DNA from: an uncultured Sphingobacteriales bacterium
GTDB taxonomy: Bacteria > Bacteroidota > Bacteroidia > Chitinophagales > Chitinophagaceae
Direction of reading: 5' to 3'
NCBI GenBank assembly: GCA_946887085.1
Contig: CAMPKG010000031.1
Coordinates: 1 to 16,055, forward strand
DNA: 16,055 bases
A program made the translations under genes and the position numbers. This document shows, in pieces, positions 6,887 to 8,687 of this stretch. Each line of letters starts with the position of its first letter. Within the stretch, counting starts at the first letter, position 1. The notes beneath the pieces were generated by a model. It was not told the origin of the DNA. It saw only the letters and a program-made list of their open reading frames with translations, and made no database searches.

Positions 6887-7297
6887 TTATTTGTTCTTGT
6901 TTTCTCTGGCCATGGTCAGCAGGCATACCGACTCTTCGGCCGCGGTGATAGAGAACGGAATATGCTCATGCAGCATCACCATCTGTCCCCGGTTGAACTC
7001 AAGTGTTTCGACCTCGGTTTTAAACTTAATGCTCCCTTCCAGTACCTGCAGGCTCATGCAGCCTGTACCATCTACTGTAGCCGGCCTTGTTTCGGTATCT
7101 TTATGTAATGCTATCAGCACCACCGTAAAATCGTCTGATTTGAATACAGTGATGGAATTGCGTTCGTTTCGCTGCCAGGCTTCTTCCTGCATCAGCTGCT
7201 GGGTGAATGCATGGAGGTCAACGGGAACCAGCGGTGCATCCAGCGGCCTTTCGCCCCAGGGACGGTTAATGGTGGACTCATTATGCTTTACTTCCAT
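6887..7297 (-). CDS. Small cupin-domain protein
   Basis: A 136-residue soluble protein with a single cupin-like beta-barrel. The second half shows the cupin order: GTGCMSLQVLEGSIKF (motif 1 region with the G-x-x-x-V-L-x-G core) and then the LEFNRGQMVMLHEHIPFSI segment (motif 2 region with G-x-x-x-x-x-P and histidines). The usual paired H-x-H of motif 1 is not obvious, while H-x-H occurs in motif 2 (LHEHIPF), so the metal site may be atypical or absent. The N-terminal half (VDLHAFTQQLMQEEAWQRNE) reads as helical. It lies 28 bases upstream of the cvfB-like gene in a likely two-gene operon. Cupins of this size are enzymes or small-molecule sensors; neither can be chosen here. Confidence 0.8.
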   Translation of the reverse strand: MEVKHNESTINRPWGERPLDAPLVPVDLHAFTQQLMQEEAWQRNERNSITVFKSDDFTVVLIALHKDTETRPATVDGTGCMSLQVLEGSIKFKTEVETLEFNRGQMVMLHEHIPFSITAAEESVCLLTMARENKNK

Positions 7298-7403
7298 AGA
7301 GTTTGTTTTTGCAGCTCAACAGCATAAATACCATTCCGCGAAGCCAGCGTTTAGTTGGGTTATTATAGAAAACACGAAAAATTAAATCGGAATTAATTTT
7401 ACG

Positions 7404-7424
7404 ATTGTTAACAGTATTAACAAT
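7404..7424. promoter_or_regulatory. Perfect palindrome, candidate operator
   Basis: Two perfect 8-base arms, ATTGTTAA and TTAACAAT, flank a 5-base spacer CAGTA. The centre-to-centre spacing of the arms (13 bases) is in the range of dimeric repressor sites. It ends 18 bases before the TAAATTTG element, so it covers the -33 region of that promoter. It could also act on the cupin operon, whose start is 107 bases away on the other strand. Confidence 0.5.
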
Positions 7425-7442
7425 TATTTAAACAGACGGCAC

Positions 7443-7450
7443 TAAATTTG
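7443..7450 (+). promoter_or_regulatory. Bacteroidota-type -7 promoter element
   Basis: TAAATTTG matches TAnnTTTG exactly. Its expected -33 element is weak (TTAAC at 7417-7421, inside the palindrome), which would fit a regulated promoter. It points at the small ORF at 7510, leaving a leader of about 50 bases. Confidence 0.5.
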
Positions 7451-7509
7451 AGGTAATATTTCAGAAGCAGAGGAGATAAGCAGGAGAGTTTTTTGTTTAC
7501 CTTGACTAA

Positions 7510-7635
7510 ATGTTTTGTATGGCCCCGACAAATCACGAAAAACACTCGAAGATCAAAGCTTTTTTTAAGGCGATGTTTTTAAAATTCCTGAAAACTGTAT
7601 TTGAGATGAAAGATAAGGAGGCGGTAACACCCTAA
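7510..7635 (+). CDS. Putative small cationic amphipathic peptide
   Basis: A 41-codon ORF (ATG at 7510, alternative in-frame ATG at 7519, stop TAA) encodes a peptide whose residues 14-31 read KIKAFFKAMFLKFLKTVF. Lysines recur every 2-5 residues with aromatic and aliphatic residues between them, the pattern of a membrane-binding amphipathic helix. Net charge is about +4 without counting histidines. The flanks are polar (TNHEKHS before, EMKDKEAVTP after). A consensus promoter and a palindrome lie upstream. No ribosome-binding site lies at normal spacing, which is common in this phylum but lowers certainty. It converges with the oxidoreductase gene, 8 bases away. It may be a toxin-like or antimicrobial peptide, a membrane-associated small protein, or a chance ORF. 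Confidence 0.45.
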   Translation: MFCMAPTNHEKHSKIKAFFKAMFLKFLKTVFEMKDKEAVTP

Positions 7636-7643
7636 AAGTGTTG

Positions 7644-8657
7644 CTACACCCGCACTGAGCCCGCGTACATCTGTTCTATCATGCGGACAACCTCGCGCCC
7701 TTCTTCGGCGCTCGTCATCACAGCATGGCCATGGTGTAATACATCCACGACATTTTGGATCACCTTATCATGATTGCTCATTGAGCCCTGGTATAAACCA
7801 TAGTCGTTGGACTTGGCAGTGATATTTATTTCAGGCAGCGTTGCAGCTCCAAGTTTCTGATATTCAATGGTATTGAGGTATTGTCCGCCTATTTTTACAG
7901 TGCCTTTTTCGGCAAATATCGTAATGGAGCCCTCCATATTACGTTCATAGGCGCAGGTAGTGAAGTTGAAATTGACGATGGTGCCGTTTGCCCCGCGTAG
8001 AACAAAACTGCCTGAATCTTCCACCTCGGTATTGTGTTTATGGGCAAAATTGTGGACCCAGCCCTCGGCGTTGGTGACGCGGCCGTTTAAATAGTAAAGG
8101 ATGTCTACAAAATGGCTGAACTGGGTAAACAAGCAGCCGCCGTCTTTGTCTCTTTTTCCCCTCCAGCTACTTTCTGCATAGTACGCATCGCCCCGGTTCC
8201 AGAAGCAGTTTACCTGCATCATATATACCTCGCCGAGTTCATTGTTAGCTATCAGCTTTTTTACGGCCTGAACGGGCGGGTTGTATCGGTTTTGCTTTAC
8301 GGCAAAAATGGTTTTTCCCGTTTCCCCAGCCGCAGCTATCATACGTGTACATTCAGCCGTGCTTATAGCCATGGGTTTTTCCACTACAGTGTGCAGTCCT
8401 GCCTTCAGCCCGGAGATGGTATGGGGTTCATGCAGGTAGTTGGGTGTGCATACGCAAAGCACATCAGTCCTTGCTTCTCTGAGCATTTTCTCCAGGTCGG
8501 TATAGAAGGTGACTCCCCTTGGAACCTTAGTGCCTGCCTGCTCTTTTATATCGCAGACAGCCACCAGTTCGGTGTCCGGGTTTTGCAGGATGTGTTCGGC
8601 ATGCCTGCGGCCTATGTTTCCAAAACCAACTATCGAAAAACGTATTTTCTCAGCCAT
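7644..8657 (-). CDS. Gfo/Idh/MocA-family oxidoreductase
   Basis: A 337-residue NAD(P)-dependent dehydrogenase from the ATG at 8657 (the frame opens 4 codons earlier at a TTG). The N-terminal Rossmann fold carries GFGNIGRRH (residues 11-19), followed by VAVCDI with the acidic residue that contacts the cofactor ribose. The family's catalytic EKPMA is at 93-97 (Lys94). The C-terminal alpha/beta domain has DGG (172-174) and then FTQFSHFVDILYYLNG, where His182 and Asp185 occupy the usual catalytic positions. Most members oxidise or reduce a sugar, cyclitol or nucleotide-sugar hydroxyl. The FWNRGDAYY and SSWRGKRDKDGG segments suggest a sugar substrate, but specificity cannot be assigned. It starts 30 bases after the recQ stop and is probably the last gene of that operon. 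Confidence 0.92.
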   Translation of the reverse strand: MAEKIRFSIVGFGNIGRRHAEHILQNPDTELVAVCDIKEQAGTKVPRGVTFYTDLEKMLREARTDVLCVCTPNYLHEPHTISGLKAGLHTVVEKPMAISTAECTRMIAAAGETGKTIFAVKQNRYNPPVQAVKKLIANNELGEVYMMQVNCFWNRGDAYYAESSWRGKRDKDGGCLFTQFSHFVDILYYLNGRVTNAEGWVHNFAHKHNTEVEDSGSFVLRGANGTIVNFNFTTCAYERNMEGSITIFAEKGTVKIGGQYLNTIEYQKLGAATLPEINITAKSNDYGLYQGSMSNHDKVIQNVVDVLHHGHAVMTSAEEGREVVRMIEQMYAGSVRV

Positions 8658-8687
8658 GTGTAGCGACAAATGTATAAATCCCCGCGG

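Follow-up and report, generated by a model that had tools for sequence, protein, structure and literature searches.

Small regulators of membrane proteins—those of the MgrB, SgrT and AcrZ kinds—have fewer than 50 residues and are encoded by stand-alone genes. Type I toxins, among them the Hok, Ldr/Fst, TisB and Ibs kinds, are short hydrophobic peptides that include basic residues, and phenol-soluble modulins and the cationic helical antimicrobial peptides consist of a cationic helix of about 20 residues. SpoVM of Bacillus subtilis is likewise small and helical. It is described as a curvature-sensing small protein that adsorbs to the membrane surface (PMC4307972).

The open reading frame (ORF) that we describe here occupies positions 7510–7635 of the window, as we call the whole 16,055-base stretch of DNA that was analysed, and it has something in common with each of these. 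Like the MgrB, SgrT and AcrZ kinds, it has fewer than 50 codons and stands alone, behind a promoter that may be condition-dependent; unlike them, its product is not a spanning helix. Like type I toxins, the product is short, hydrophobic and furnished with basic residues, but no antisense promoter or spanning helix is predicted, and there is one match per genome. It shares a cationic helix with the phenol-soluble modulins and the helical antimicrobial peptides, and departs from them in having no recognised export genes nearby, a conserved C-terminal tail and a hydrophobic moment that is not exceptional. SpoVM serves as a model of action only: the ORF product may, by analogy, bind to a membrane, but SpoVM has its sporulation context and none is known at the ORF. 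The features of the locus are as follows.

6887–7297, minus strand: divergent neighbour, a 136-aa cupin-like protein (weak manA and MPI_cupin_dom matches, below cut-off).
7404–7424, either strand: dyad ATTGTTAA-N5-TTAACAAT, probable operator, its centre 28.5 bases upstream of TAnnTTTG.
7443–7450, plus strand: Bacteroidota promoter element TAAATTTG, the only plus-strand TAnnTTTG in the window.
7451–7509, plus strand: predicted 5' leader, in which the blocks GATAAG, AGAGT and TTGTTTA are conserved (alignments A4 and A7).
7510–7635, plus strand: almost certain small protein gene, 41 codons from the ATG at 7510, stop included in the coordinates; frame kept in loci L009 and L057, homologue P0003, single helix in the AlphaFold2 model.
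7519–7635, plus strand: alternative, possibly true start at M4, giving 38 aa; this form is P0002 in the protein collection.
7623–7645, either strand: hairpin GGTAACAC / GTGTTGCT spanning the stop codon, and possibly a terminator between the two convergent genes (fold z −1.42).
7644–8669, minus strand: convergent neighbour, a Gfo/Idh/MocA oxidoreductase (Pfam PF01408).

Translation of 7510–7635 on the plus strand gives MFCMAPTNHEKHSKIKAFFKAMFLKFLKTVFEMKDKEAVTP*, 41 residues, at the position and in the frame that the original prediction assigned to it. The helix that it saw at residues 14–31, KIKAFFKAMFLKFLKTVF, and the net charge of about +4 are borne out as well, the charge being counted on the 38-aa form. 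Two of its remarks on the setting fare less well. The supposed gene desert is an intergenic gap of about 346 bp (7298–7643) with the cupin-like gene on one side and the oxidoreductase gene on the other, and annotation pipelines do not overlook the ORF: the 38-aa form from M4 is listed in 12 contigs in the protein collection, and hence some gene caller did find it. Length, for its part, is no evidence for a gene, because ATG ORFs of 41 codons or more turn up in 263 of the 1000 dinucleotide-shuffled versions of the gap.

Comparison with other genomes is more informative. A genome scan with the neighbouring oxidoreductase yielded 54 loci, and at two of these, L009 (from a Flavipsychrobacter MAG) and L017, the cupin neighbour lies on the same side. 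L009 keeps the frame at the syntenic position, with 49% identity over residues 2–40 (tblastn E 3e-11). L057, in genome G097 of the same genus as L009, was found by genome search, and here, too, a cupin and an oxidoreductase flank the ORF; its protein is MLRMTPTKLERDSALKSFFKTLFLRILRSIFETKDEGAVTQ. Searching the protein collection with a profile added P0003, a 61-aa JGI hypothetical protein that ends CMTPAKQVKASVTVKSFFRSLLIRILRSIFETKDEGAVTN; it is one metagenome protein, which we count as a family member.

Frame loss and stop codons, which the original prediction named as grounds for refutation, were looked for in the two close syntenic copies, L009 and L057, and the ORF survived. Computed pairwise over 38 codons from three DNA sequences only, with synonymous sites near saturation, pN/pS is 0.50 for window–L009, 0.33 for window–L057 and 0.16 for L009–L057 (dN 0.10, dS 1.04), and it changes little if one omits the last six codons, which overlap the hairpin. 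Ratios in the two remaining forward frames are at least 0.85, with three to five stops per copy. The antisense mirror frame (0.35–0.71) is open in L009 and L057 and has a stop in the window copy. When the same substitutions were placed at random in the ORF, the observed protein similarity was reached in 0–3 of 5000 trials in each of six comparisons. The frame is under purifying selection, less constrained in the window pairs (0.33 and 0.50) than the cupin neighbour, for which the same pairs give 0.19 (window–L009) and 0.22 (window–L057); the cupin value for L009–L057 is 0.11. We regard the ORF as almost certainly a real protein-coding gene.

Translation may begin at M4 (7519) rather than at M1 (7510). 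M4 is kept in the four close members of the family, and P0003, which keeps it, has no methionine at the place of M1. Counting against M4, the AAATG block of the ATG at 7510 is kept in three DNA sequences; between the two methionines, L009 differs by a three-base indel that keeps the frame. In Flavobacterium johnsoniae, an adenine at −3 is described as favouring translation (PMC6847099), and neither window start has it: positions 7507 and 7516 are both T.

At the other end of the gene, the modeled hairpin at 7623–7645 could act as a terminator of both convergent transcripts. Nineteen of 200 shuffles are equally stable, and the corresponding hairpins of L009 (30 of 200) and L057 (66 of 200) are weaker. 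Pfam searches of 17 neighbouring ORFs matched nine at 0.001 and left eight without a match, and no transporter, processing, immunity or antitoxin family was among them. Elsewhere in the window, at 1013–1330 and 1450–1698 on the plus strand, two adjacent small genes appear by eye to encode related Cys-containing lipoproteins (SSCLKTYNCSC and VSCNKSYDCEC); neither has a Pfam match.

The fourth syntenic locus, L017, is in genome G002. There the frame MRNRKSTSRISVKAQIKRMVYKLLRFGFEVRVRDKARTAVR holds the corresponding position next to the end of the oxidoreductase gene and is preceded by TAATTTTG. By sequence alone, with a profile built without it, the L017 protein ranks sixth among 14,688 frames at E 4.3, which is not significant; we consider it a probable positional orthologue. 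The profiles for the genus and 393-genome searches included L017, and so its low E-values there arise by construction. L009 was likewise in those profiles, and L057 in that of the 393-genome search; in a search whose profile excluded it, L057 scored E 5.9e-18. In G002 the cupin gene is separated from the small ORF by a gene that looks, by eye, like an aldo/keto reductase (L017, 6360–7307).

The family is narrow, lineage-restricted and without a match in the libraries searched. Strong small-protein matches occur in three of 15 genomes of the genus and in three of 393 relatives. The three carriers are G001, G097 and (by profile construction) G002, with one match each, and the same three genomes possess a close cupin orthologue, 64–76% identical. 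Genome G303, by comparison, has an oxidoreductase orthologue (77%) without a recognised copy of the ORF, and its cupin, a distant one (38%), is on another contig. Of the 46 loci whose oxidoreductase is about 65% identical or closer, the small ORF was recognised only in L009 and L017, though several of the others stop too close behind the gene to show whether it is there. Weak matches, four in the genus at E 0.02–0.08 among them, were set aside as chance: they lie in G080, G299, G297, G298 and G267 (E 0.0027–0.081), and the one in G080 overlaps a longer coding sequence, as read by eye. Plasmids and phages returned no match to the small protein. The best Pfam match to the window protein is DUF2683, at 12.7 bits versus a cut-off of 27, and NCBIfam, PHROGs and PADLOC contain no family that matches it at E 1. 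The proteins P0001 and P0003 have no match in PADLOC, and the L017 protein reaches 14.1 bits versus a cut-off of 32 with TIGR01766 of NCBIfam. Sequence searches of the PDB gave only non-significant matches, to ribosomal protein eL27 (three sequences, E 0.096–0.17), and searches by fold gave none at E 10.

That the ORF has its own promoter region is well supported. TANNTTTG is described as a Bacteroidetes promoter element (PMC6847099), and the exact TAnnTTTG copy noticed in the original prediction, TAAATTTG at 7443–7450, is the sole one on the plus strand in 16,055 bases; the minus strand has two, neither of them within 7300–7700. The element stands at the corresponding place in the other loci—as TATATTTG in L009, TATCTTTG in L057 and TAATTTTG in L017. 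L009 and L057 have a further TATTTTTG within the ORF, and L017 has a minus-strand copy of TAnnTTTG ahead of the neighbouring gene. The predicted palindrome of eight plus eight bases is present, too, as ATTGTTAA, five nucleotides, then TTAACAAT, at 7404–7424. In the window, L009 and L057 a perfect inverted repeat, with arms of 7–10 bp and a 5-base spacer, is centred at precisely the same distance, 28.5 bases, upstream of TAnnTTTG. A second inverted repeat in the window gap (8-bp arms, centred 53.5 bases upstream) is absent from the other loci. L017 has a different dyad, ACCGTTTTAAAACGGT, 30 bases upstream of its TAnnTTTG. The leader that follows the promoter folds no better than its shuffles do (z −0.02 to −0.43).

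The exact 7+5+7 core, TTGTTAA-N5-TTAACAA, occurs once each in G001 and G097, at the ORF locus, and not at all in the 13 other genomes of the genus; G002, for example, is without it. A wider regulon for this dyad was sought and rejected: sites with up to two mismatches number 22 and 42, versus 33 and 47 for the reversed control. The L017-type dyad, ACCGTTTWWAAACGGT, is found at 11 places in the 15 genomes (three in G002, one in G302, seven in G303), and a control pattern at none. Nine of the 11 sites were inspected, the L017 ORF locus included, and an exact TAnnTTTG lies 30–33 bases downstream in four of the nine and not in the other five; with the L017 ORF locus set aside, the arrangement holds at three of eight. 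The four consist of the L017 locus, a 485-aa gene (an aldehyde dehydrogenase, by eye) and two sites in G303. Loci L101, L102, L106 and L107, in G002 and G303, belong to this set, and four sites fall within 2 kb of one G303 contig. The ACCGTTTWWAAACGGT dyad is probably the operator of some regulator, or else a short repeat.

AlphaFold2, given four sequences, folds the product into one helix, residues 9–38, with a mean pLDDT of 92 at residues 21–30, 73.8 overall and a pTM of 0.38. Basic residues at helix places 1, 5, 10 and 13 and a closing FE are common to all five members. In the four close members the helix core is rich in Phe, Leu, Ile, Val and Met, the N- and C-terminal flanks are conserved along with the helix, and the C-terminal tail has the form FE-x-KD-x-x-AVT. 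Net charge is +2 to +6 in these four (L057 having the +2) and +12 in L017. The highest 19-residue Kyte–Doolittle mean is 0.94 in the window copy and 0.40–1.13 across the family, which makes the helix too polar for a membrane-spanning one. Its hydrophobic moment at 100 degrees, 0.34–0.41, was equalled in 1294 of 5000 shuffles for the window helix, in 843–974 for the other three close members and in 903 for L017, and so falls short of proving it amphipathic. For all five, a 90-degree angle, chosen after the results had been inspected, gives a larger moment than 100 degrees does.

That there is a gene here is near certain; what its product does, and by what mechanism, is not. The original prediction was of a membrane-active or membrane-associated peptide, possibly a type I toxin or an antimicrobial. 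We keep the real small-protein gene and, as the best reading, the membrane-associated cationic helix, and we find no support for the toxin and antimicrobial options. Our preferred explanation, which we put forward tentatively, is that a small protein, its production tied to some condition, sits at the inner membrane surface and uses its conserved tail to act on a partner. A lineage-restricted protein of 38–41 residues would be made from its own promoter, under the control of a dyad-binding regulator that responds to some condition and whose site would have its centre some 40 bases upstream of where transcription starts. Sites at about that distance are where many activators bind. The cationic, hydrophobic helix would lie on the inner face of the cytoplasmic membrane, and the C-terminal tail might then contact a partner protein, as known small regulators of membrane proteins do.

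The two kinds of dyad invite a more speculative extension, one that we think doubtful. Protein and promoter geometry would have been kept while the operator was swapped between branches (TTGTTAA-N5-TTAACAA versus ACCGTTTTAAAACGGT), and the product would be an orphan membrane-surface regulator whose control has passed between dyad-binding regulators. This reading takes L017 to be a true orthologue, which the L017 sequence alone does not prove.

The main rival to the membrane-surface explanation is nucleic-acid binding: a small basic protein whose target would be nucleic acid, or else a ribosomal or RNA partner, with its hydrophobic residues packed on that partner. We judge this unlikely, if worth taking seriously. 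It would account for the conserved basic residues and for a helix with no membrane-spanning segment, and the sole PDB profile matches, non-significant as they are, are to eL27. The strongly basic L017 protein (+12) would suit it also, and counts against the membrane reading. The net charge of L057 is only +2, however, and a helix core rich in Phe, Leu, Ile, Val and Met is unexpected in a surface-exposed binder.

The product is probably neither a toxin nor a secreted peptide. A type I toxin, or some other self-acting peptide that disrupts membranes, would likewise be short, cationic, hydrophobic and helical, and could well be encoded by a stand-alone gene with its own promoter element. We find it improbable, nevertheless. 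The consensus scan detects no TAnnTTTG on the minus strand within 7300–7700, and the single sigma-70-like match on that strand, at 7423–7396, is what chance alone would give (1.0 expected) and falls outside the ORF. Hydropathy over 19 residues in the window copy, at most 0.94, falls short of membrane-spanning. The gene occurs as one match in each of three carrier genomes, with the same chromosomal neighbours in three loci, and there is no phage or plasmid match, nor does PADLOC match P0001 or P0003.

A peptide exported as an antimicrobial or a signal would also have a cationic hydrophobic helix of about 18 residues, yet this seems more improbable still: no transporter, processing or immunity family is recognised by Pfam among the 17 neighbours (eight of which have no match at 0.001), no signal peptide is obvious on inspection by eye, plasmids and phages have no match, and in the four close members conservation takes in the flanks as well as the helix. 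Least probable of all is that the ORF encodes no protein and that a regulatory RNA or leader, conserved as such, only gives the impression of a frame, for while leader and dyad are conserved too and ORF length is within chance, there is third-position bias, pN/pS is 0.16–0.50 here against at least 0.85 in the other forward frames, simulations did as well in 0–3 of 5000 trials, the leader folds no better than shuffles, and Rfam has no match in the window.

The wider significance of the membrane-surface candidate is modest, given its narrow distribution. A 41-codon ORF flagged from raw sequence can, all the same, be shown to code by means of a few syntenic genomes. The locus is a compact example of a small gene that combines a narrow distribution with a fixed promoter architecture, and it adds a family with no match in the searched libraries to the little-known small proteome of the Bacteroidota.
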